Source of the DNA: Candidatus Methylacidiphilales bacterium
GTDB lineage: Bacteria > Verrucomicrobiota > Verrucomicrobiia > Methylacidiphilales > JAAUTS01
Assembly (NCBI GenBank): GCA_028713655.1
Contig: JAQTNW010000016.1
Span: 1-64,000, forward strand
DNA: 64,000 bases
Direction of reading: 5' to 3'
Shown: positions 7,090 to 51,735 of the stretch, piece by piece
Position numbering within the stretch: position 1 is the first letter of the stretch
Layout of the letters: the number at the start of each line of letters is the position of its first letter
Program-made: the position numbers and the translations under genes
The notes under the pieces: model-generated
The model's input: the letters and a program-made list of their open reading frames with translations, nothing else
Database searches by the model: none
What the model was told of the DNA's origin: nothing

Positions 7090-7857
7090 CTAGCCGGGGG
7101 AAACTTTCTTTTCTAGGGGAATATTCAAATCCTTTTCAAGTTTTCGCATGTGCTCCCACACCATTTCCCATCGATGCGGCCCCGGACCGTGCTCACGGCT
7201 GCCAAGCCAGAGTTTTTTCCAGTACTCATAGGCCTCCCGCTTTTTTCCCGCATTTTCAAGCATAAACCCCGGAAATCGCTCCAGATAGACCGGCGCTCCG
7301 GGCCGCTGCGAGGCCAGTTCGTAATAATGGGCGGCCTGCACATAGTCCTTGCAACGGTCCTGATACAACATGGCCAGCGCGCGGTATAATTCGTATCTTT
7401 CAGGAATCGTCTCAATACCCCGCTCCAGCATTCGCCGGCCCGCCTCAATCCACATGCGGGAATCCCTGTTCCCGCTTTCAATGCCGCCCGTCCTACCTGA
7501 CTGTTCGGCATCAATGCTGGCATTCCATGCCAGTTGCCATGCCCCCATTTCCCAGAAAAAAACAACCCGCGGCTGCATGAGGACCGCCAATTCCGCCAGG
7601 GTTCGCACCCGTGTCCATTGCTTTTCCTCCCAGGCGCCGGTCAATGAAATCCAGAGAAAGTTGGCGGCCAGGCCGCGGAATCCGCCCAATGCCGCAACGC
7701 TCAGCCCCTGGCCCAGGCTGTCACGAAGCTGGAAGTTCATCGCCAGATCGGAACCTCCCATGGTCACACGCCTCTCTGCTGCCATCCTTTGTTCCCAGGG
7801 AGTCTTGGCAGCGCCCCAGGCCGCCAGCAACAGCACCGCCAGAATCCGGCACTTCAC
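7090..7857 (-). CDS. Exported TPR-like protein coupled to ABC permease
   Basis: 255 residues starting at a GTG whose GTGA overlaps the stop of the upstream permease gene. The N-terminus (KCRILAVLLLAAWGAA) is a short signal peptide or membrane anchor. The rest is helical with alternating aromatic and Ala residues and reads like degenerate TPR units (YELYRALAMLYQDRCKDYVQAAHYYELA). A conserved-looking GGFRGLAANFLW segment follows the signal. I do not recognise a catalytic motif. Coupling to the permease suggests an accessory or periplasmic subunit of that transporter. Confidence 0.6.
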   Translation of the reverse strand: MKCRILAVLLLAAWGAAKTPWEQRMAAERRVTMGGSDLAMNFQLRDSLGQGLSVAALGGFRGLAANFLWISLTGAWEEKQWTRVRTLAELAVLMQPRVVFFWEMGAWQLAWNASIDAEQSGRTGGIESGNRDSRMWIEAGRRMLERGIETIPERYELYRALAMLYQDRCKDYVQAAHYYELASQRPGAPVYLERFPGFMLENAGKKREAYEYWKKLWLGSREHGPGPHRWEMVWEHMRKLEKDLNIPLEKKVSPG

Positions 7858-8723
7858 AGCTCGCGTTCCTCAAAAATCAGCGCCGACAACGCCATGACCA
7901 CGGCGATGTAAACGCCTGAATAAGCCAGAATCTCGGCCGTCTTGTGCCAGGACACCGCATTCCCCGCAATCATCTCATCAATCAGGCTGTAGGCCTGAAA
8001 ATCAGGAACTAACAATGAAATAATAGCTAGAAACGCCGACTTGGGCCAGTCCAGATGCGCGCCCCCGTTCAACCAGGATTCGCGGGCAATCGACTGCAGG
8101 TGTCCGGCAAAATAAACAAGCAGCGTCATGCAGGCAATGAAAACGGTCGATGTCGCCACGGTGGAAAACAAGACCGCCAGCGCGATCACAATGCACAACT
8201 TCGCCCACAACAGGCAAAACGCCTGCAGCATCGCGGGGTCCTGGACCTGATGGCGGATCATGTTGATTTGCTCCGCCTGCAGTTCACCGGGGGCATTGCC
8301 TCCTCCCCCACCCAGGCCGGCCATCATCAAGACCCCTTTGAAACGCAGCACCAAAAAAAATATCAGCGCCATCATCAGCATGTTGAGGGTCAGCACCGCC
8401 ACCAACCCAAGGTATTTGCCCAGAATAAATTCATGACGCTGCACCGGCTTGCTGAGCAGGGTGTAAATCGTCCGCCGCTCAATCTCGGATGGGATCAACT
8501 GCGACGTGGAAACCAACGCCACCACCAGCCCGATCATGCTGATCGCCGCATAAGCCGAGTCCTTCATGAACTTGAACTCGTCCCCCAGGGAAAAATCCGT
8601 GCCAAAAGTTCCAAGGGCCAGCAAAACAACCCCGAAAACAATAAGAACATATAGAATCCTTTGCCTCAGAGCCTCTGTCAGGGTGTTGCCTGCGATCGCC
8701 AGGATGTGATTCAAACCTTTCAT
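7854..8723 (-). CDS. ABC transporter permease (ABC-2 type)
   Basis: The start is the ATG overlapping the ATPase stop (ATGA), giving 289 residues beginning MKGLNHILAI. Six hydrophobic segments are visible, with an N-terminal helix LYVLIVFGVVLLAL, a cytosolic stretch (SEIERRTIYTLLSKPV, the typical coupling region of NosY/ABC-2 permeases) and a glycine-rich external loop around residues 140-150. Paired with the ATPase upstream it would form a heteromeric exporter or a membrane-remodelling transporter. Substrate unknown. The gene is flanked on both sides by 4-base overlaps. Confidence 0.83.
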   Translation of the reverse strand: MKGLNHILAIAGNTLTEALRQRILYVLIVFGVVLLALGTFGTDFSLGDEFKFMKDSAYAAISMIGLVVALVSTSQLIPSEIERRTIYTLLSKPVQRHEFILGKYLGLVAVLTLNMLMMALIFFLVLRFKGVLMMAGLGGGGGNAPGELQAEQINMIRHQVQDPAMLQAFCLLWAKLCIVIALAVLFSTVATSTVFIACMTLLVYFAGHLQSIARESWLNGGAHLDWPKSAFLAIISLLVPDFQAYSLIDEMIAGNAVSWHKTAEILAYSGVYIAVVMALSALIFEEREL

Positions 8724-9613
8724 TTGGAGTCCTCCTCGCCAATTGCACGGATGAACCAATCCTCCAGCCGCATTTTTGGATGCCCGATTGCCACGCCGCG
8801 TCCGCCCTGTTCCACAAGCCATCGCTTTAATTTTGCCTTTGATTCCTTCCCAAGCCCCTTCACCCGTATCTCCAATTCATCTTCCACCGACAAAAGATCT
8901 TCCAGCTTTCCTTCGCGCAGTTTTTCGCCGCGATGCAAAATCACCACACGGTCGGAAACTTCCTGCACCTGCTCCAGAAGGTGCGACGAAAAGATCACCG
9001 TCTTGCCGCGCTGTTTCAGGTTCAAAATCAGATCGCGAATCTGCCGGGACCCCGCCGGATCCACACCCGCCGTGGGTTCGTCCAGCAGGAGCAAATCAGG
9101 GTCATGCAGAAGCGCCTGAGCCAGCCCGATACGCTGCAGCATTCCCTTGGAATAAGTCTTCAAGGGACGCGCCGCCGCCGAACCGGACAATTCCACCTGC
9201 TCCAGCAATGCGTCAATCCTACCCTCCAACGCCCTCCCGCTCAAATCCACCAGCCGCCCATAATAACGCAGCACCTCACGACCCGACAAAAAATCGGGGA
9301 AATATGGATTTTCCGGCAAAAAACCGCAGCACCGGCGGGCCTCCAGGGAACCGGCCGCATGCCCAAAGATCTCCGCGCGGCCCGCGCTGGGACGCAAAAG
9401 CCCCAGCAAAAGCTTCAGGGTGGTGCTCTTGCCCGAACCGTTCGGGCCTAACAATCCAAAAACCTCGCCTCTTGCGACCTCCAAATCCAGGCCCGACAAC
9501 GCCAGCAGGCTTTTCAATTTCCAATGCAGCCGGAAATGTTTGGCCAGGCCGCTGATCCGCACTGCGGGAACTTCGAAGCCGGAGGATGAGGCGGGTGCAG
9601 TTTTAGGTTTCAT
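8720..9613 (-). CDS. ABC transporter ATP-binding protein
   Basis: About 297 residues from ATG 9613; a TTG at 9622 that overlaps the acylphosphatase stop is an alternative start. The motifs are complete: Walker A GPNGSGKST, signature YSKGMLQR, Walker B LLLLDEPTAGVDP, D-loop, and switch His in SSHLLEQV. The order and spacing match the CcmA/NatA group that pairs with ABC-2 permeases, and the C-terminal extension (EDELEIRVKGLG) is typical of that group. It energises the permease encoded next. Genes acyP, ATPase, permease and TPR-like protein form one tightly packed minus-strand operon. Confidence 0.88.
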   Translation of the reverse strand: MKPKTAPASSSGFEVPAVRISGLAKHFRLHWKLKSLLALSGLDLEVARGEVFGLLGPNGSGKSTTLKLLLGLLRPSAGRAEIFGHAAGSLEARRCCGFLPENPYFPDFLSGREVLRYYGRLVDLSGRALEGRIDALLEQVELSGSAAARPLKTYSKGMLQRIGLAQALLHDPDLLLLDEPTAGVDPAGSRQIRDLILNLKQRGKTVIFSSHLLEQVQEVSDRVVILHRGEKLREGKLEDLLSVEDELEIRVKGLGKESKAKLKRWLVEQGGRGVAIGHPKMRLEDWFIRAIGEEDSK

Positions 9614-39548: not shown

Positions 39549-39998
39549 ATGAATCTTTCCAAACGCGGCGAATACGCCCTCCGGGCGCTTATTGCCTTGG
39601 GTATTGCACAAAGTACAGGCCGCGAGCTGGTTCCGCTTCGTGAACTTGCAAAAAACGAGAACATTCCGGGCAAATTTCTCGAACAAATCCTCATTCAGCT
39701 TCGTGAGAATGGCTATGTGCAAACGAAGAGGGGCAAGCTGGGTGGTTATTTTTTGGCCAGGCCCATGGACAACATCTCCATTGGCCAGGTGGTACGTCTG
39801 ATCGACGGACCACTGGCCCCCATAAGTTGCGTCAGTCAAACAGCTTATAAAAAATGCTCCTGCCCGGATGAAGCCAACTGCGGCCTTCGGATATTGATGT
39901 TGGATGTTCGAAACGCGATTGCCAATATTTTGGATCGTTACACCTTGGCCGACTCGGTATCGGCGACACTTTCGAAAAAAGCGAGCCCGGCGAAATAA
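39549..39998 (+). CDS. Rrf2-family transcriptional regulator
   Basis: 149 residues beginning MNLSKRGEYALRAL, the standard Rrf2 start. The winged HTH follows (PLRELAKNENIPGKFLEQIL, then KRGKLGGYFLARP). A cysteine cluster in the middle (C-x8-C-x-C-x5-C from about residue 95, ending CPDEANCGL) resembles the [Fe-S]-binding loop of IscR/NsrR-type members. Its place before a sulfate/cysteine locus suggests it reads sulfur or Fe-S status, like CymR or IscR. An inverted repeat downstream at 40017-40040 is a candidate site. Confidence 0.85.
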   Translation: MNLSKRGEYALRALIALGIAQSTGRELVPLRELAKNENIPGKFLEQILIQLRENGYVQTKRGKLGGYFLARPMDNISIGQVVRLIDGPLAPISCVSQTAYKKCSCPDEANCGLRILMLDVRNAIANILDRYTLADSVSATLSKKASPAK

Positions 39999-40068: not shown

Positions 40069-40248
40069 ATGAATGACCTTGCAAACGAACAAAAAAACGG
40101 CCTTTCCGCGCAGGAAGCAGAGATCCTGCGCGCGGTCCGCGGCCTCCATTACGGCAGCGTGATCGTCACGGTCCACGAACACCGGATCGTTGAAGTCAGC
40201 CGACAGGAAAAAATCCGTTTTCAGCCCACACCCGGAAAAAAAATTTAG
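40069..40248 (+). CDS. yezD: YezD-family small protein (DUF2292)
   Basis: 59 residues. The core is QEAEILRAVRGLHYGSVIV, then VHEHRIVEVSRQEKIRF, which matches the short DUF2292/YezD proteins. These are commonly encoded beside sulfate-assimilation genes in bacteria; their biochemical role is not established. Here it is the first gene after the Rrf2 regulator. Confidence 0.8.
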   Translation: MNDLANEQKNGLSAQEAEILRAVRGLHYGSVIVTVHEHRIVEVSRQEKIRFQPTPGKKI

Positions 40249-41882: not shown

Positions 41883-42899
41883 ATGAAATTATCAAACCTG
41901 ACAAAAATCAGCCTCCTGCTCGGAGCCGCCCTTCTGGGCGGCTTAGCCGGGAGCCAGCTCCAAGCAAAAGAAATCAAACTCCTCAACGTCTCGTACGACC
42001 CCACACGCGAACTCTACGTCGATATCAACAAAGCATTCGCCGAATCCTGGAAAGCCAGGACCGGAGACACTGTCACCATCGACCAGTCGCATGGCGGCTC
42101 GGGCAAGCAGGCCCGCGCGGTCATTGACGGCCTCGAAGCCGACGTGGTCACGCTGGCTTTGGCCTATGACATCGACATCATCGGGAAGAAAAAAAATCTG
42201 CTGTATGCCGATTGGCAGAAAAAATTCCCGGAAAACAGCTCGCCCTACACCTCAACCATCGTGTTTCTGGTTCGCAAGGGCAACCCGAAGGGCATCAAGG
42301 ATTGGGATGACGTGGTCAAGCCCGGAATCTCGGTCATCACACCCAATCCCAAGACTTCCGGCGGCGCGCGCTGGAACTTCCTGGCGGCTTGGGCTTATGC
42401 GAGGCACAAATACGGCGATGACATCAAAGCCCAGGAGTTCATCACCAAGCTCTACAAAAATGTGCCGGTGTTGGATTCCGGCGCCCGAGGCTCAACGACC
42501 ACATTTGTCCAACGCGGAGTCGGCGACGTGCTGCTGGCTTGGGAAAACGAGGCCTTCCTTTCCATCAAGGAGTTTGGCGCTGACAAGTTTGAAATTGTGA
42601 CGCCGTCCCTCAGCATTTTGGCGGAGCCTCCGGTGGCAATCGTCGATAAAATCGCCGAAAAACACGGAACCACCGAAGTGGCCAAAGCCTACCTCAACTT
42701 CCTTTATACGGAACAGGCCCAGGACCTCATCGGCAAGAATTTCTACCGTCCGCGTTCCGCGCAAGCCGCAGCCAAATACGGAAAACAATTCCCCCAACTG
42801 AAACTTGTGACCGTGGATGGCGAGTTTGGCGGCTGGCAGAAGGCTCAAAGCGGTTACTTTAACGACGGCGGAGTCTTTGACAAAATCTACCAACCCTAA
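41883..42899 (+). CDS. sbp: Sulfate/thiosulfate ABC transporter substrate-binding protein
   Basis: 338 residues, signal peptide ending near residue 28 (QLQAKE). The Sbp/CysP signature is present: [59 protein letters not shown] and VLLAWENEA. It binds sulfate in the periplasm and hands it to CysT/CysW. The permease and ATPase genes lie 3.5 kb downstream on the same strand, with cysK and unknown genes between. A perfect hairpin follows the stop. Confidence 0.92.
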
Positions 42900-42986: not shown

Positions 42987-43949
42987 ATGCCCATACAAAC
43001 TGACGTTCTGGCAACCATCGGACGCACCCCTCTCATCAAACTCAACCGCATCGCAAGGGACGTGGACGCCACCATCGCGCTCAAGGCGGAATTTTTCAAC
43101 CCGCTCGGCAGTGTCAAGGACCGCATCGGCGCCGCAATGATCCAGGCCGCCGAAAAAAGCGGCCAACTAACACCAGGCACCACAATCATCGAACCCACCT
43201 CCGGCAACACCGGAATCGCACTGGCCTTCGTGGCTGCGGCACGCGGCTACAAACTGATCCTCACCATGCCGGAAAGCATGAGCCTGGAACGGCGCACCCT
43301 GCTCGCCCTGCTTGGAGCGCAACTGGTGTTGACTCCCGCAGGCGAAGGCATGAAAGGCGCAATCACCCGCGCGCAACAATTGCAAAAAGAAACCGCGAAT
43401 TCCTGGATTCCGCAACAGTTTGAAAATCCGGCCAATCCGGAAATCCATCGCACCACCACGGCCGAGGAAATCTGGGCCGACAGCAACGGCAAGGTCGATG
43501 TTTTGATTTCAGCCGTCGGCACCGGCGGGACTATTACCGGCGTCAGCGAGGTGATTAAATCCCGCAAACCCTCGTTCAAGGCGATTGCCGTCGAACCCAA
43601 GGACTCGCCGGTCATCACGCAAACCCGCGCCGGCGAACCCGTCAAACCCGGCCCTCACAAAATCCAGGGCACTGGCGCAGGCTTTGTGCCAAAAAATCTG
43701 AATCTGGATGTTGTGGACAGCGTGATCACCGTCAGCAACGAAGATGCGATCTCCACCGCGCAGCGTCTGGCGAAGGAAGAAGGCCTGCTCGTCGGCATTT
43801 CCACCGGCGCGAATGTATGGGCCGCCCTGCAAGCCGCCGCAAAGCCGGAAAACAAGGGCAAGCTGATCGTAACCATCGGATGCAGCACCGGCGAACGCTA
43901 TCTCAGCACCGCGCTGGCCGAAGAAGCCCGCAAGGCTGTTACGACTTGA
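42987..43949 (+). CDS. cysK: Cysteine synthase (O-acetylserine sulfhydrylase)
   Basis: 320 residues, fold type II PLP enzyme. The N-terminus has [11 protein letters not shown], the PLP Lys is Lys44 in GSVKDRIG, the substrate loop is [12 protein letters not shown] and the phosphate loop [11 protein letters not shown], with SGxGxG-type [10 protein letters not shown] near the C-terminus. It makes cysteine from O-acetylserine and sulfide in the cytoplasm. It stands inside the sulfate uptake locus. Confidence 0.92.
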
Positions 43950-43956
43950 TCCGTAT

Positions 43957-44862
43957 ATGATCCGAATCCTCAACAAACGCAAACGGATTTTGGCTCAACC
44001 CATCCCGCGCCTCGCGATGAAAAAAAAGAATCAGACCCCTGGCGGCAACACGAGCCGCCAGGGATTGCTGTCCGGCCTGAAGGACCGCCGTTCCGTGCAG
44101 GATTTGATCGCTCCTCTGGCAAAAGCCTGCCAGAGATCCGGCTGCCTGTTCCATGCGCCGTTGGAACCCTTTGAACTGGGCAATCTGGTTTATCGCATGC
44201 CGCGTTTTGCGTTTATCGGGCCGGGCTCTGGCGGAAGCTACTACAAGCGGCTCGGCCTCTTCGCCGGCCTGCATGGCGATGAAATTGCGGGCCCGCATGC
44301 CATAGTGGAATTTTTGCGCCAGCTTGAAGCCTCCCCCCTTCTCGGCAAAGGATGGGAAATCTTCGCCTACCCGGTATGCAACCCCAGCGGCTTTGAAGAC
44401 AACACGCGCTTCTCCCGCCGTGGCGTGGATTTAAACCGCTTGTTTTGGAAAAAATCGCGCGAGGCCGAAGTGCAGATTCTCGAGGATCAGATCGGAGGAA
44501 TGCAGTTTGACGGCATCATTTCCCTGCATGCCGACGATTCGAGCGACGGAATTTACGGCTTTGCCCGCGGCGCGGAGATTACGCGCGATGTTCTGGAACC
44601 CGCCCTCGAAGCCGCCAGCGCCATTATCCCCCGAAACAACAACAGGCGCATCGACGGATTTGACGCTGAAAACGGAATCATCAGCAAATGCTACAGTGGC
44701 GTGTTAGGCGCGTCGCCATCCGCGCAGCCCCGACCCTTTGAAATCGTTCTCGAAACGCCCCAACTGGCCCCGCTCAAAACACAGGTCGAGGCCCACGTCA
44801 CCGCCTTGCTCACGTTGATCGCCGAATACCCGAAATTCATTTCCTACGGGCAGGATTTATAA
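43957..44862 (+). CDS. M14/aspartoacylase-type zinc amidohydrolase
   Basis: 301 residues (an internal ATG at 44017 is an alternative start). The zinc motif is GLHGDE (His106, Glu109); then come the substrate-site NPSGFEDNTRFSRRGVDLNR, the third ligand His in GIISLHADDSSDG and a late Glu in FEIVLETPQ, in the order of the M14/succinylglutamate desuccinylase-aspartoacylase superfamily. It should hydrolyse an N-acyl amino acid or peptide-like bond. It begins 7 bases after cysK, so it is part of the sulfate/cysteine operon; an N-acyl-cysteine or related substrate is a guess. Confidence 0.8.
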   Translation: MIRILNKRKRILAQPIPRLAMKKKNQTPGGNTSRQGLLSGLKDRRSVQDLIAPLAKACQRSGCLFHAPLEPFELGNLVYRMPRFAFIGPGSGGSYYKRLGLFAGLHGDEIAGPHAIVEFLRQLEASPLLGKGWEIFAYPVCNPSGFEDNTRFSRRGVDLNRLFWKKSREAEVQILEDQIGGMQFDGIISLHADDSSDGIYGFARGAEITRDVLEPALEAASAIIPRNNNRRIDGFDAENGIISKCYSGVLGASPSAQPRPFEIVLETPQLAPLKTQVEAHVTALLTLIAEYPKFISYGQDL

Positions 44863-44986
44863 CCACACGGCCATGCCCGCTTTTTCACAGCTTTCTTCAC
44901 CGCTACCGGAAAACTGGTGTTCAACCCAACCCATCCGCAGGCTGAATCGGTCAGGCCGTACCCGCCCGCAAAATCAAGGAACACCC

Positions 44987-45796
44987 ATGAACTCCAAAAC
45001 ATTGAACATCCTCCAACACCTGCCGGTCCCGGCAGCGCAGGCCCCGTACACGCAGGAAGTCGATCAATTGCTCCATCCCCTGCGCAAATTCACCCTGCTC
45101 GAAAATGGCGTGCAGGACAGCCCCATCACCACCGTTTCCGACGGCAAACGTTTCCATATCGAACGATTTGTCTTTATCGGCCCGGATTCCGGCCATCAGC
45201 CCATTCGTCTTGGGATATTTGCCGGAATTCGCGGTCAGGACCGGCACAGCCCCGCTGCGGCCGTCCGCTTCCTGCACGACCTGGTGGCATCGCCCGAACT
45301 GGCCACCGGCTTCCATATCTATTTTTATCCCGTTGCCTATCCACATGGATTCAACAACCACCAGCCGGGTCTTGGCGCCGGCAAGGATCTTTTCCAGCTC
45401 CTCTGGAAAGATTCGCCCCTGCCCGAACCCTATCTGCTGGAACGCGAGCTGGCTGTCATCCAGTTTCATGGCATTCTCTCGCTCCTGGGCTTAAGCAACT
45501 TGTCAGGCGTTTCATTGCAACTGCACGGAGTCTGGAGCAGCCTGCAAACCACCGTGGTCCAGCCGGCTGTCCATGCCGCTTCCAGGTTCCTTCCGCTTGC
45601 CCAGTCGGGCGACTGGACGGCATCCCAGAAAATCTCGCTGACAACGGGAGGCGATCTCAACCCGAGGCCCTTTGAAATTTCAATCAAGGTACCCCGCGAA
45701 ACCGCGCCCCGGACGCAAATCAACGCGTACCGCGCCGCACTGCACGCCATCCTGCAACATTACCGCGCCGTCATCTCGCATGCGCAGCATATCTGA
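44987..45796 (+). CDS. Catalytically dead paralogue of the M14 amidohydrolase
   Basis: The ATG at 44987 (aagga 7-8 bases upstream) gives 269 residues. It aligns end to end with the preceding protein: FVFIGPDSG for FAFIGPGSG, GIFAGIRGQD for GLFAGLHGDE, YPVAYPHGF for YPVCNPSGF, FHGILSLLG for FDGIISLHA and PRPFEISIK for PRPFEIVLE. All zinc ligands are lost (His to Arg82, Glu to Asp85, third His to Leu), and the catalytic Glu is Lys. It is an intact gene, so probably a pseudoenzyme that binds or regulates rather than hydrolyses. Confidence 0.8.
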   Translation: MNSKTLNILQHLPVPAAQAPYTQEVDQLLHPLRKFTLLENGVQDSPITTVSDGKRFHIERFVFIGPDSGHQPIRLGIFAGIRGQDRHSPAAAVRFLHDLVASPELATGFHIYFYPVAYPHGFNNHQPGLGAGKDLFQLLWKDSPLPEPYLLERELAVIQFHGILSLLGLSNLSGVSLQLHGVWSSLQTTVVQPAVHAASRFLPLAQSGDWTASQKISLTTGGDLNPRPFEISIKVPRETAPRTQINAYRAALHAILQHYRAVISHAQHI

Positions 45797-45809
45797 AAAA
45801 CAATCTACG

Positions 45810-46007
45810 ATGAGTCTGCAAATACTTCCAAAAAACAATTCCCGGGCCGGTACCCGGAAAAGCGCGGCAAAATTAATCCGAAGTGCGTCACACACCCCGC
45901 TCGGCGAGGTTCGCTACCATGTGGAAAGCGGCATCTGCCGCGGCGTCTGGATCGATGGCGTGTACGTCCGCGTCCACCGCGATGGACGAATGACGCTTGA
46001 AAGTTGA
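45810..46007 (+). CDS. Small hypothetical protein
   Basis: 65 residues. The N-terminal half is basic (SRAGTRKSAAKLIRSASH); the C-terminal half has a beta-hairpin-like pattern (VRYHVESGICRGVWIDGVYV, then VHRDGR). It follows the pseudoenzyme gene by 13 bases and is the last gene before a 390-base repeat-rich gap. I do not recognise it. Confidence 0.5.
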   Translation: MSLQILPKNNSRAGTRKSAAKLIRSASHTPLGEVRYHVESGICRGVWIDGVYVRVHRDGRMTLES

Positions 46008-46398
46008 ATAACAACGAATACGCCAGGGAAACCAGAAACACGATTTCGCCACAAAAGAACACAAGGGAAACAAAGGGGAATATCCACTTGAACCACGGAT
46101 GGACGCGGATCAACACAGATGAAAACACAAGCAGGTTCTCACGCAGAGACGCAAAGGCGCAGAGGAAAACTAAAATAAACCCGAAACTTCAATACAAGCC
46201 GCATCGTTCCATCTGCCTCAATTTGCGTAATCCGCAGATGCGGATGCGTTTCTTTGCGTCTTCGCGCCTTGCGCCCTCTTGCTCGCGACGGATTGTCGGG
46301 GTTGCGTTAAAAAATCCTGTACCCGTTGAAATATCTTTAAAATCCGACCTGTTTGAAATTGTGTCCGCATTCACTTGCTCACAATATGCCTAAGAACC
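46008..46398. repeat. Gene-free stretch with modular repeats
   Basis: Holds reverse-orientation modules (gaaccacggatggacgcgga, atcaacacagatg, then acgcagagacgcaaaggcgc), the forward module tttctttgcgtcttcgcgcc (46250-46269) and the palindrome gctcgcgacggattgtcggg (46281-46300). It splits the sulfate locus between the small hypothetical protein and cysT and forms the region upstream of cysT. Confidence 0.6.
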
Positions 46399-47328
46399 AT
46401 GACGTTGAAAAAATACAAACACCGCCGGGTGCTCCCCGGTTACGGCCTGACGATGGGGTTTACCCTTCTGTACCTGTCGCTGCTGATTCTCATTCCTCTG
46501 GCTGGGGTCTTTTTCAAGGCTTCGGAAGACGGATGGCTGCACCTGTGGGAGGCCGTCAGCAACCCCCGCGCCCTCGCGTCCTACCGCATCAGCTTTGGCG
46601 CTTCGCTGCTCGGAGCGGCTATCAATGCGGTCTTCGGCCTGCTGGTGGCCTGGGTGCTGGTCCGCTATCAGTTCCCCTTCAAGCGTCTTGTGGATTCGCT
46701 CGTGGATCTGCCCTTCGCCCTGCCCACCGCCGTGGCCGGTATTACGCTGACAGCTCTTTATGCTCCACACGGCTGGATCGGCGCCTGCTTCAGCAAGGAC
46801 GGTTTCATCGGGCACGCCTTTACGCCGGATGGATGGATCGGCGCCCTGTTCCCGCCTGAAACCTGGATCGGCAGCCACCTCCCGTCCAATGGCATTCAGA
46901 TCGCCTACACCTGGATCGGCGTGACTGTCGCCCTCACTTTTATCGGCCTGCCCTTTGTCGTGCGCACCGTACAACCCGTGTTGCAGGACCTCAGCATCGA
47001 TTTCGAGGAAGCCGCCGCGAGCCTGGGCGCCAACCGGTTCCAAACCTTCACCCGCGTTATTCTGCCCGAGCTTTTCCCGCCGATACTCACGGGGTTCTCC
47101 CTGGCCTTTGCGCGGGCGCTCGGAGAATACGGTTCCGTTATTTTTATTGCGGGAAATATGCCCATGCGCACGGAAATCACTCCGCTTTTGATTGTGATGA
47201 AGCTCGAACAATATGATTATTCCGGCGCAGCCGCGATTGCCGCAATGATGCTCGTGGCCTCCTTCCTTCTGCTCCTGCTCATCAACTTGACTCAATGGTG
47301 GAACTCACGATTTTACCAAGGGAACTGA
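46399..47328 (+). CDS. cysT: Sulfate ABC transporter permease CysT
   Basis: The start MTLKKYKHRR gives 309 residues with six membrane helices. The CysT/CysU core is clear (VDLPFALPTAVAGITLTALY, TWIGVTVALTFIGLPFVVR, EEAAASLGANRFQTFTRVIL with the EAA loop, FARALGEYGSVIFIAGN). Between the third and fourth helices it has about 35 extra residues compared with the E. coli protein, made of four 10-residue repeats. The ATG of cysW lies 2 bases after its stop. It pairs with CysW to move sulfate. Confidence 0.9.
   Translation: MTLKKYKHRRVLPGYGLTMGFTLLYLSLLILIPLAGVFFKASEDGWLHLWEAVSNPRALASYRISFGASLLGAAINAVFGLLVAWVLVRYQFPFKRLVDSLVDLPFALPTAVAGITLTALYAPHGWIGACFSKDGFIGHAFTPDGWIGALFPPETWIGSHLPSNGIQIAYTWIGVTVALTFIGLPFVVRTVQPVLQDLSIDFEEAAASLGANRFQTFTRVILPELFPPILTGFSLAFARALGEYGSVIFIAGNMPMRTEITPLLIVMKLEQYDYSGAAAIAAMMLVASFLLLLLINLTQWWNSRFYQGN
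46768..46887 (+). repeat. Four 30-bp in-frame repeats inside cysT
   Basis: Four consecutive 30-base units encode residues 124-163 of CysT, each with the pattern (H/D/E)-(G/T)-(W/F)-I-G-x-x-(F/L)-x-(K/P/S). The WIG triplet recurs at exact 10-residue spacing (FIG in unit 2). DNA identity between units 1 and 3 is high (ggctggatcggcgcc and ggatggatcggcgcc). The segment would lie in an external loop. Confidence 0.8.
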
Positions 47329-47330
47329 AC

Positions 47331-48224
47331 ATGCCCGGCCCCACGACCACGCTGATTGCACGCCACAAAACAGGCCCCGCCGCGTCTTCCCACGCCCACG
47401 GGCGGGAGGATCACGTCTGGGCGCGCCGCATCCTCATCGGCGCCGCGCTCATTTTCATGCTCCTTTTCCTGGTGGTGCCGCTCGTGGCGGTTTTCACGGA
47501 GGCCCTGCGCAAAGGCCTCGACGCTTATTTTCAAGCGTTTCAAGATCCCGCCGCCCAGAGCGCCATACGACTTACCCTGACGGTGGCGCTTATTGTTGTT
47601 CCTCTCAACACTCTCTTCGGCCTTTCCGCCGCCTGGGCCATTACCAAGTTCGACTTCAAGGGCAAAAATATCCTTCTGACGCTCATCGACCTGCCCTTCG
47701 CCGTCTCGCCCGTCATTGCCGGGCTCGTCTTTGTCCTGATCTTCAGTCACACATGGTGGGGAGTCTGGTTCTCCGAGAATGTATGCCATGTTATTTTCGA
47801 CACACCCGGCATTGTTCTCGCCACGATCTTTGTCACCTTCCCGTTTGTGGCCCGCGAAATCATCCCGCTCATGCAAGCCCAGGGAGCGGATGAGGAGCTG
47901 GCCGCAGTATCATTGGGAGCCAACGGCTGGCAAACATTCTGCCGCGTCACTTTGCCCAACATCAAATGGGGCCTCCTGAACGGCATCATTCTCTGCAATG
48001 CCCGCGCCATGGGCGAATTCGGCGCGGTTTCGGTTGTCTCAGGCCATATCCGGGGAAAAACCAACACCATCCCGTTGCACATAGAAATTCTTTACAACGA
48101 ATACCAGTTCTCCGCCTCTTTCGCCATAGCGTCCCTTCTGACGCTGCTGGGCATCGCCACACTGGTGATCAAAGCCATCATCGAAAACCGGCACGAACCC
48201 GGCAACGGAGGCGTTCAACATTGA
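47331..48224 (+). CDS. cysW: Sulfate ABC transporter permease CysW
   Basis: The start MPGPTTTLIA gives 297 residues with six membrane helices. The CysW features are FVVPLVAVFTEALRKGLDAY, TLIDLPFAVSPVIAGLVFVL, the EAA-type loop DEELAAVSLGANGWQTFCRV and MGEFGAVSVVSGHIRGKTNT. It forms the second half of the transport pore. It sits between cysT (2-base gap) and cysA (15-base gap). Confidence 0.92.
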   Translation: MPGPTTTLIARHKTGPAASSHAHGREDHVWARRILIGAALIFMLLFLVVPLVAVFTEALRKGLDAYFQAFQDPAAQSAIRLTLTVALIVVPLNTLFGLSAAWAITKFDFKGKNILLTLIDLPFAVSPVIAGLVFVLIFSHTWWGVWFSENVCHVIFDTPGIVLATIFVTFPFVAREIIPLMQAQGADEELAAVSLGANGWQTFCRVTLPNIKWGLLNGIILCNARAMGEFGAVSVVSGHIRGKTNTIPLHIEILYNEYQFSASFAIASLLTLLGIATLVIKAIIENRHEPGNGGVQH

Positions 48225-48239
48225 TCCCTTATTAGAACT

Positions 48240-49313
48240 ATGAACATCGAAGCCAATACCATCACAAAAACTTTCGGCGATTTCAAGGCGTTGAACGCCG
48301 TCGATTTGCAGGTCAACTCCGGCGAGTTGCTCGCACTCCTAGGCCCCAGCGGCTCGGGCAAAACCACCCTGCTTCGAATCATCGCCGGCTTGGAAAGCCC
48401 GGACGACGGCAGCGGCGGCGTGTTCTTCGGCGGCGAGGAAGTCACCAATCGCAGCGCGAAGGATCGCGGGATCGGATTTGTCTTTCAGCATTACGCCCTG
48501 TTCCGGCACATGAACGTTTTTGAAAACGTCGCCTTCGGTCTGCGCGTCCGCAGGTTCATGCACCGCCCCAGCAGGGGCGAAATCAAGGATCGCGTCCAAA
48601 GCCTTCTCAGGTTGGTGAAGCTGGATGGATTGCAAAAACGCTATCCCAGCCAGCTTTCCGGCGGACAGCGCCAGCGTGTCGCCCTGGCGCGCGCCCTGGC
48701 CGTGGAACCCAAGGTGCTGCTGTTGGACGAGCCGTTCGGAGCGCTCGACGCCAAGGTCCGCAAGGAACTCCGCCGCTGGCTCCGCGAGCTGCACGAAGAA
48801 ATCCATGTCACCAGCATCTTTGTAACGCACGATCAGGAGGAAGCACTGGAACTGGCCGACCGCGTGGTCATCATGAATGCCGGGCGTGTTGAACAAGTCG
48901 GGACTCCGGAAGAAGTTTATGATTCCCCCGCCAACTCCTTTGTCTTTCAATTCCTCGGTTCCGTGAACACCCTGGCCGCCTCGGTGGCGAACGGCTCCGC
49001 GCTCATCGGCGATGTCCGGTTCCCAACCGGGACCAGCGGTCTCAATGAGCCTAACGGGCTCGCCTTTATCCGACCGCACGAATTCGGCGTATCCAAGACG
49101 AGGGAAACAGAACCGGCCCTGGAAGCTTCCGTGCGCCACATTCAGCCCGTTGGCCCCATCATTCATCTTCAAGTCATTCGCACCGACAACGGCGACCTCC
49201 TGGAAGTAGAGCTGACCCGGGAACGCTATGGCGCCCTTGCGCTCAAACGGGGCGAAACGGTTTATCTGCACCCTCACCGTATGCAGGTCTTCCCTCCGGA
49301 TTATTCGATTTAA
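48240..49313 (+). CDS. cysA: Sulfate ABC transporter ATP-binding protein CysA
   Basis: 357 residues. Walker A is GPSGSGKTT, the signature QLSGGQRQR, Walker [13 protein letters not shown] and the switch [12 protein letters not shown]. The C-terminal TOBE-type domain ([24 protein letters not shown]) is that of the CysA branch. It powers CysT/CysW. A hairpin with TTTT begins in its stop codon. Confidence 0.93.
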
Positions 49314-49639: not shown

Positions 49640-49882
49640 ATGAAACATCTATTCAAATTAGTAATGGCTGGCCTGCTCCTGGGTATCTTTACATGCCCGG
49701 TCTTGCAGGCGGGGACAACAATCGAAACCACCAAGGGCCCTCGCCTGACAGTTGCCGAGCAGGGTACTTGTTGCGCATGGCGCCATCATCACCGCTGCCA
49801 TCACAAGCACCATGGCAAATGCCATCACAAACATCACCACAGGCATCATCGCCATCACCACCACAAATGCTGCCAGCAGTAA
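49640..49882 (+). CDS. Small exported histidine-rich protein
   Basis: 80 residues: signal peptide KHLFKLVMAGLLLGIFTCPV, cleaved near residue 24, a short polar segment with CC at about 44-45, then a tail in which over half of the residues are His, with Lys, Arg and Cys (HHHRCHHKHHGKCHHKHHHR and on to KCCQQ). Such a tail should bind Ni2+, Zn2+ or Cu2+ outside the inner membrane. It has its own terminator. The tail's cat/cac-rich DNA could be a slippage product, but the signal peptide and terminator argue for a real gene. Confidence 0.7.
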   Translation: MKHLFKLVMAGLLLGIFTCPVLQAGTTIETTKGPRLTVAEQGTCCAWRHHHRCHHKHHGKCHHKHHHRHHRHHHHKCCQQ

Positions 49883-50237: not shown

Positions 50238-51182
50238 TTACTCTCCCGCTGCGAAGCCAAGCCGAGACTTCCGCTCCTTGAGCACACCCGCGTAAGAAAT
50301 CTTCTTGTTCGGAGAAAGAAAACTACCGGCGATCAGCTCGTCCCAGAGCGGAAAGGCCGCCTGAAAACGCTGGATTATTTCGCCCAGGATACGGTCGTTG
50401 ATCTGAAGGCGTTCTCCGGCAAAATAGCTAAACAGGTCGCTTCGTGTGAGACTGGATCGCTTCCCGTGAAGGGGCAGGGCCATCTCTTCCTTCGGTTTCG
50501 TTAGTGCGATGGTCGAATTCACCAGATCGTAGGCCGGCGCAAGATCAATGCGTCCGCGCCGGGTGATGAGCGAAAAGTTTTTCAAGTGCATGTCCTCGTT
50601 GCCGGTAAGGAAGCTGAAAAGTGTCCGCTCGAAAAGCTTCACACGCTCGATGGCGGGGAATGTGCAAAACCGTTCCACAATGGCCGCCACCTCTTCCATG
50701 GACGATTCGTATTTTGTCTCCCTGCTCGCGCCTGAAAGCTGCGAGAAATCTTCCAGCGGAATCCGCCCCTTCCGCGCCTCGCGATCGAAACGCCTTATGA
50801 AATACGTGAACGAACCGTCACTGGCGTAAACAAGTCCATGCAGTGGCGTCTCGATCCCAACCCCAGCAGCGAGACGCATCGTCAGGTCTTCATTCTCGGG
50901 CAGTTCCGGAAAATCCAGGCCCGGCGGCTTGAGGATGAACTTGCCGTTGCAATCCACCACCTCAAACCTGCCCTCCCTGCTCTTCAGCACGGCGCTCAAC
51001 TTTAACTGGACTCCCGGGATGGACATTTTCCCCGCGCGCTCAAGCGCCTCCTGCCGCTGCTCCACTGCTGTGTAAGCCAATGGAGCCAGGGAAAGGAGAT
51101 TCCGGTCCAGAAGCTTCAATCCGCCGGCCGAGTAATCCACCCAGGAACTGACCGGCTCGTAGGTGATCGGACAGCGTTTCAT
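50238..51182 (-). CDS. hipT: HipT-like serine/threonine kinase toxin
   Basis: 314 residues. The N-terminus (CPITYEPV) and the Gly-rich loop SIPGVQLKLS (residues 54-63) match HipT of HipBST systems; the second Ser of the usual SxS autophosphorylation pair is Pro56 here. Lys85 (FILKPP), catalytic Asp197 and Asn202 in LTGNEDMHLKNF and the metal Asp219 in LAPAYDL are intact. It lacks the HipA N-terminal subdomain, which is a separate gene. Related kinases phosphorylate aminoacyl-tRNA synthetases (GltX for HipA, TrpS for HipT) and halt growth. ATGA-coupled to hipS. Confidence 0.85.
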   Translation of the reverse strand: MKRCPITYEPVSSWVDYSAGGLKLLDRNLLSLAPLAYTAVEQRQEALERAGKMSIPGVQLKLSAVLKSREGRFEVVDCNGKFILKPPGLDFPELPENEDLTMRLAAGVGIETPLHGLVYASDGSFTYFIRRFDREARKGRIPLEDFSQLSGASRETKYESSMEEVAAIVERFCTFPAIERVKLFERTLFSFLTGNEDMHLKNFSLITRRGRIDLAPAYDLVNSTIALTKPKEEMALPLHGKRSSLTRSDLFSYFAGERLQINDRILGEIIQRFQAAFPLWDELIAGSFLSPNKKISYAGVLKERKSRLGFAAGE

Positions 51183-51487
51183 TCTATCTCCTTCACCGTG
51201 AGCGAGCCGACGAGATCCTGGCCGGTCAGCTTCAACTGCCCGAACAGGTCATTGCCATCCAGTTTGTGGCGGCGCAGCATCGCCTCCAGTTGCATCCCTT
51301 CCGGCAGCAGGCCTTCAAAGGCGGGCGGGAACCGGTCAAAATCATAGACACGCCGCGACACCGGCATGGTTAGCGACACCGATTCACCGGAATAACCGTC
51401 CGAATAGCTGAACCGCCATTTGTCGCCGCCAAGTTCTTCGAGAAAACCGGCGAGAACACCCTGCTGATAAATCCCGGCCATTCTCAT
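51179..51487 (-). CDS. hipS: HipS-like antitoxin (HipA N-terminal subdomain protein)
   Basis: 102 residues. It has the HipA N-subdomain pattern: AGIYQQGVLAGFLEE, then FSYSDGYSGESVSLTMPVSR and the end FEGLLPEGMQLEAMLRRHKL. In HipBST systems this separate piece is the antitoxin that blocks the kinase. Overlaps hipB upstream and hipT downstream, both by ATGA. Confidence 0.85.
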   Translation of the reverse strand: MRMAGIYQQGVLAGFLEELGGDKWRFSYSDGYSGESVSLTMPVSRRVYDFDRFPPAFEGLLPEGMQLEAMLRRHKLDGNDLFGQLKLTGQDLVGSLTVKEIE

Positions 51488-51735
51488 GTCGTTTGATCTT
51501 TTGATGAAGTGCCAACGCTGTCGGCCCGAAGGCGTTCCATCACCGGGCTCTGGAGGTTGATCGTGATATTGAGCGCCGAGAGGATCTTCGCCAGGGTGTC
51601 ATAGCGGACCGACAGCTTTCCATGTTCCAAATCAAAGATCACAGTCTTTCCAACGCCAGCCAGCTTTGCCAGTTCGGCCTGAGAAAGGCCGCTCACGCGC
51701 CGGTGCAGTTTGATGATTTCCTTAAGCATTTTCAT
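51484..51735 (-). CDS. hipB: HipB-like HTH regulator
   Basis: 83 residues. A helix-turn-helix of the Cro/CI (Xre) type covers most of it: LHRRVSGLSQAELAKLAGVG, then TVIFDLEHGKLSVRYDTLAK. It represses the operon through palindromes just upstream and usually augments neutralisation. It is the first gene of a three-gene operon. Confidence 0.88.
   Translation of the reverse strand: MKMLKEIIKLHRRVSGLSQAELAKLAGVGKTVIFDLEHGKLSVRYDTLAKILSALNITINLQSPVMERLRADSVGTSSKDQTT

Follow-up and report, generated by a model that had tools for sequence, protein, structure and literature searches.

The 64,000-nucleotide stretch of DNA analysed here (hereafter the window) harbours a sulfate/cysteine locus that, according to its Pfam and NCBIfam signatures, successively encodes an Rrf2-family regulator, a DUF2292 protein, a porin, a sulfate-binding protein (SBP), CysK, two M14-type proteins called A and B below, a 65-residue protein, CysT, CysW and CysA (Table 1). 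The Rrf2 family, to which CymR belongs, is thus linked to cysK and the sulfate genes in the window, and an Rrf2 gene repeatedly adjoins A in many of the other A loci that we read. The small DUF2292 protein (40069-40248, + strand) also recurs upstream of the SBP gene at three other loci (L064, L065 and L191).

Gene A starts 7 bases after the cysK stop codon, as the earlier note had it and as the ORF coordinates confirm. The 65-residue protein that the same note placed downstream of the pair corresponds to a real ORF, for which tblastn found no homologue in related loci and which has no Pfam match. In a relative of the same family (G003), cysT directly follows A with no intervening ORF. Because 602 bases (45797-46398) separate B from cysT, co-transcription of B with cysTWA is uncertain. 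This gap contains a 29-base stretch (46094-46122) that has the look of an intergenic repeat, yet is single-copy within the window.

Two other features were observed downstream of cysA. An 80-residue ORF (49640-49882, + strand) begins like a signal sequence, ends in a tail very rich in His and has no Pfam match. Further on, three overlapping genes on the - strand (50238-51735) code for an HTH protein, a HipA N-terminal domain (102 residues) and a HipA C-terminal domain (314 residues), a split arrangement that resembles the three-gene HipBST-type toxin-antitoxin modules.

Table 1. Coordinates of the main features of the sulfate/cysteine locus in the window.
Feature	Position	Strand	Basis
Rrf2-family regulator (CymR/IscR-like), head of the locus	39549..39998	+	Pfam PF02082, E=5e-37
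Sulfate ABC transporter substrate-binding protein (SBP)	41883..42899	+	NCBIfam NF008022/TIGR00971, above cut-off
cysK, cysteine synthase A	42987..43949	+	TIGR01139, 447.9 bits, above cut-off
Gene A, predicted intact AstE/AspA-type M14 zinc amidohydrolase	43957..44862	+	PF24827, 48.6 bits (gathering cut-off 25 bits); active-site residues; structural model
Gene B, putative conserved pseudoenzyme paralogue of A	44987..45796 (ORF annotated from 44873)	+	Homology, residue losses, dN/dS
65-residue ORF	45810..46007	+	Reading frame; no Pfam or tblastn match
cysT, cysW, cysA (sulfate permeases and ATPase)	46399..49313	+	TIGR02139, TIGR02140 and TIGR00968, above cut-off

Gene A and its linkage to sulfur genes

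Gene A codes for a protein of 301 residues that passes the gathering cut-off of the AstE/AspA catalytic-domain model PF24827. All eight active-site residues, including those of the DLNR and TR motifs, are kept (H106, E109, R151, D158, N160, R161, H191 and E266); the H-x2-E motif, the third zinc His and the catalytic Glu that the first reading of the sequence had assigned to this gene are H106, E109, H191 and E266. The corresponding letters, HERDNRHE, are found in nearly all the tabulated relatives of A, the exceptions being one N-H, one final Q and one fragment at a contig end. The AlphaFold2 model of A (pLDDT 86) best matches Shewanella M14 proteins, and both profile and fold comparisons give the Shewanella entries 3ieh, 2qvp and 3b2y as the nearest solved structures. 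These entries and the SO_3749-type N-acetylornithine deacetylase of Shewanella have the same fold as A, with about 22% identity and a different gene setting. The match of A to NF052223, which describes this Shewanella deacetylase, is weak (E=1.6e-11, 43.9 bits for an equivalog cut-off of 400). Judging from its signature and residues, A is an intact AstE/AspA-type M14 amidohydrolase, predicted to cleave amides. It shares HxxE, the third His, the catalytic Glu, DLNR and PF24827 with the members of the AstE/AspA branch, namely succinylglutamate desuccinylase, aspartoacylase and aminoacylase-3. Unlike them, it belongs to no curated subfamily, as it scores far under every NCBIfam cut-off, and it is encoded in sulfate/cysteine loci.

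With the A profile, a match at E<=1e-40 was obtained in 118 of the 384 genomes of this Verrucomicrobiota class, and in a sample of the phylum all 18 genomes with a match belong to the same class. We collected 116 A loci, as stretches of 4-20 kb that are not independent of each other; the SBP gene or cysT/cysW are found near A in 77 of these, and in 87 if cysK is also counted. The usual gene order is SBP-A-cysT-cysW-cysA. For a rough comparison, 12 kb correspond to about 0.3% of a genome of 4 Mb; A is thus linked to sulfur genes far more often than chance would give. At loci that lack the transporter, A adjoins genes for an O-acetylhomoserine sulfhydrylase and CysK (L151), or is found with genes for cystathionine gamma-synthase and cysteine desulfurase (L163), for CysK, a rhodanese and a TauE-family exporter (L226), or for an SsuA-type ABC system (L176). 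In one genus (g13), the neighbours of A are non-sulfur genes, and no sulfur genes were seen beside it. Gene A is a regular member of the sulfate/cysteine locus of the class. Also adjoining A at L163, next to the cystathionine gamma-synthase gene, is a gene (7369-8841, - strand) for a protein resembling BesB-type PLP enzymes (NF042918, 214 bits for a cut-off of 800).

Gene B and other diverged homologues of A

Gene B aligns with A from end to end (31% identity, E=8e-34; profile-profile E=3.6e-39), which bears out the description of the two adjacent genes as similar throughout. The annotated start of its ORF (44873-45796) adds a non-homologous leader. The ATG at 44987, which yields a protein of 269 residues, is favoured because it gives the homologous protein and sits behind an AAGGA Shine-Dalgarno-like stretch; the numbering of Arg82 and Asp85 in the earlier note agrees with this start. 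DLNR has become DLFQ in B, and the residues of B at the eight positions of A listed above are, in order, R, D, P, D, F, Q, L and K. The catalytic and zinc residues are thus missing, with the same losses in four orthologues, and the frame is intact; the earlier note had reported the R, D, L and K replacements and the intact frame. No Pfam or NCBIfam family matched B. Its predicted structure nevertheless keeps the M14 fold (pLDDT 83.4, pTM 0.84; best PDB match 3b2y, E=7.1e-11, TM 0.63), with the N-terminus and one loop (126-132) poorly predicted; the input alignment included relatives of A, which may help this fold to appear.

The four orthologues, with intact frames and 49-51% identity over their full lengths, come from genomes of the same family as the window (G002, G004, G005 and G006). 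A search of 62 genomes of the order yielded no others, and a pattern scan of our genome collection returned only the four known loci. More than 100 positions are invariant across the five B proteins, which also have in common invariant motifs that are new to B (RGxDR, QLHGxWSSL and GDWxAS). The dN/dS ratio amounts to 0.086 between the two closest sequences and to 0.17-0.26 in more distant pairs, with dS saturating in the most distant. Total loss of the catalytic residues and a faster evolution than that of A are what one would expect of a decaying duplicate, a pseudogene in the making. However, the intact frames in five species, the level of identity, the invariant positions, the retained fold and the dN/dS values make this explanation highly improbable, and conservation and dN/dS rule out that B is a pseudogene. 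Decay in close relatives was the outcome that the earlier note had set against its own proposal; the four relatives instead hold an intact B under purifying selection. By these sequence criteria (an intact and conserved gene, catalytic losses and purifying selection), B qualifies as a maintained pseudoenzyme paralogue of A.

In the family of the window, A and B occur together or apart. The window genome is the only one in which they are in tandem. In G006, the sulfate operon includes A, and B is located on a different contig. G003 harbours A, directly before cysT, without B. Conversely, G002, G004 and G005 possess B and no A, cysK being followed by cysT at an otherwise intact junction. In G001 neither A nor cysT was found. 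A and B are therefore separable in loss. In four of the five species B is solitary and away from sulfate genes; translated sequences indicate a kdsB-like gene in its vicinity in G002 and G005, and an adjoining trpB-like gene in G006. With B solitary in these species, three of which lack A, and with G003 devoid of B, the view of B as an obligate partner of A fails, and an obligate pair as a general rule is ruled out.

Another diverged M14-like protein is present in nine genera of a second family (f20), and the same residues are missing in all nine. In eight of the nine genomes its gene is in the sulfate operon beside the SBP gene, and in seven of these it is located just ahead of A, either between the SBP gene and A (L165, L167, L169 and L194) or separated from A by a second SBP-like gene (L160, L193 and L196). 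In the eighth (G216), it lies between the SBP gene and cysT, and there is no A. The ninth genome (G074) has the gene elsewhere, away from the SBP gene, and no A at the 1e-40 level, such that A is absent from two of the nine genera. In this class, a live enzyme together with a dead homologue is thus encountered repeatedly in sulfur loci. The enzyme/pseudoenzyme pair in sulfur assimilation that the earlier note had proposed hence stands in part: a live and a dead copy are found in the operon, and dead-plus-live pairs exist in other families of Verrucomicrobiota, whereas within its family the A-B tandem is confined to this genome. Second M14-like copies, all very diverged, also adjoin A or the SBP gene at L185 (6828-7640, family f51), L187 (4368-5087, f46) and L188 (7025-7774, f43). 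Their catalytic residues are mostly gone, and they are too diverged for placement in a tree.

The f20 homologues and those of the B group (hereafter f1-type) harbour different residues at the same active-site places. In a tree built with A, f1-type and f20-type sequences, the dead homologues fall on one side with a support of 97/97. Nearly all members of both dead groups have an Asp at the position of E109 in A, and both groups end with QH[LI], found in 1 of roughly 100 A-type frames. A single origin of all dead homologues is possible on these grounds. Long branches are involved, however, and long-branch attraction may account for the grouping, since in profile comparisons each dead group is nearer to A (E=3.6e-39 for f1-type, E=2.2e-23 for f20-type) than to the other (E=8.5e-16). 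A proteins of another family (f9) score up to 133 bits with B, and the A encoded in the window 107 bits. These scores speak against a recent local duplication of the A gene of the window as the origin of B and indicate that the A/B duplication probably predates the family.

Possible roles of A and B

The reading that we prefer, with a probability of about 0.5, is that A is an N-acyl-amino-acid hydrolase of the sulfur locus, and that B serves the same regulon through binding or regulation, is held by purifying selection and does not strictly need A. As a predicted cytosolic zinc amidohydrolase, A would deacylate a small amino acid that carries an N-acyl group. Several leads point to this type of substrate, namely the AstE/AspA-type site, the match with SO_3749, for which N-acetylornithine deacetylase activity has been reported (PMC3219624, PMC5764234), the deacetylation of mercapturic acids by the M14 enzyme aminoacylase-3 (PMC11511702), and the N-acetylcysteine deacetylases of Bacillus subtilis. 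Our guess is that it might prefer N-acetyl-cysteine or its S-conjugates, or else N-acetylserine arising from O-acetylserine; deacylation would bring the skeleton back into cysteine synthesis.

B appears no longer able to bind metal or substrate, and its catalytic base is gone. Because its fold and new motifs are kept nevertheless, and because it persists without A, we infer that it may bind either some small molecule or another regulon protein, such as the transporter, CysK, or A where present, and thereby tune sulfur uptake or cysteine synthesis. CysK and the repressor CymR form a known cysteine-control pair (PMC9239247), and by analogy regulation by B through CysK or the transporter is a concrete possibility. 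With B away from sulfate genes in most species that have it, the main indications of a link between B and sulfur come from the window and the f20 homologues. The retention of an intact dead look-alike in several lineages is suggestive of a function in sulfur nutrition other than catalysis, hitherto undescribed.

B might instead be an obligate subunit of A, with a regulatory or structural part in a mixed complex where the dead protein modulates the live one. The tandem in the window, the dead homologue directly or one gene upstream of A in seven f20 genomes and the fact that M14 aminoacylases form dimers (PMC11511702) fit with such a complex. We consider it unlikely, as B has remained without A despite an intact cysK-cysT junction in three species, the near-complete genomes G074 and G216 harbour f20-type dead homologues and no A, and most A loci are devoid of a dead partner. 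Somewhat less doubtful, albeit tentative, is that all dead homologues form one ancient branch that arose early in the class and persists as a stand-alone sensor or transporter-control protein of the sulfur regulon, sometimes paired with the live enzyme; the gene order SBP-dead homologue-cysT in G216 and the B-only species of the family of the window would exemplify this.

Two further explanations appear improbable to a similar degree. The invariant motifs specific to the five B proteins could denote a new enzyme, in which the old fold supports a different chemistry, with RGDD and Lys replacing HGDE and Glu. The f20 homologues have other residues at these places, however, which argues against a common new site across the two groups. 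Alternatively, B could be unrelated to sulfur metabolism and next to A by chance, consistent with its solitary location elsewhere, for instance near kdsB- or trpB-like genes. This is at odds with the position of the f20 homologues beside the SBP gene in all but one genome, including G216, where A is missing from between the SBP gene and cysT, and with the similarity between the two dead groups in profile comparisons.

A and B point to a step or control point of sulfate/cysteine metabolism that is still unstudied and that much of one bacterial class has in common. They also represent a rare bacterial test case for pseudoenzymes, with natural genomes that harbour the enzyme only, the dead homologue only, both or neither, and these combinations make the role of a dead enzyme without its live partner directly testable.

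Our literature search, for which subscription papers were mostly out of reach, yielded no account of this A/B pair. The B. subtilis deacetylases ScmP, YhaA and YtnL act on N-acetyl amino acids, as predicted for A, but they belong to family M20 rather than M14. The accessible part of a study on Bacillus places scmP, yhaA and ytnL in clusters predicted to recover damaged cysteine and makes no mention of dead paralogues of their products (PMC12757645). In other M14 proteins, including AEBP1, CPXM1, CPXM2, domain III of CPD and yeast Ecm14, zinc ligands, residues for substrate binding or the catalytic Glu have been lost while the fold is kept, and these proteins have non-catalytic roles (PMC11266112). 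These pseudopeptidases are eukaryotic and of the carboxypeptidase type, whereas B is bacterial, of the AstE/AspA type and encoded in a sulfur locus.
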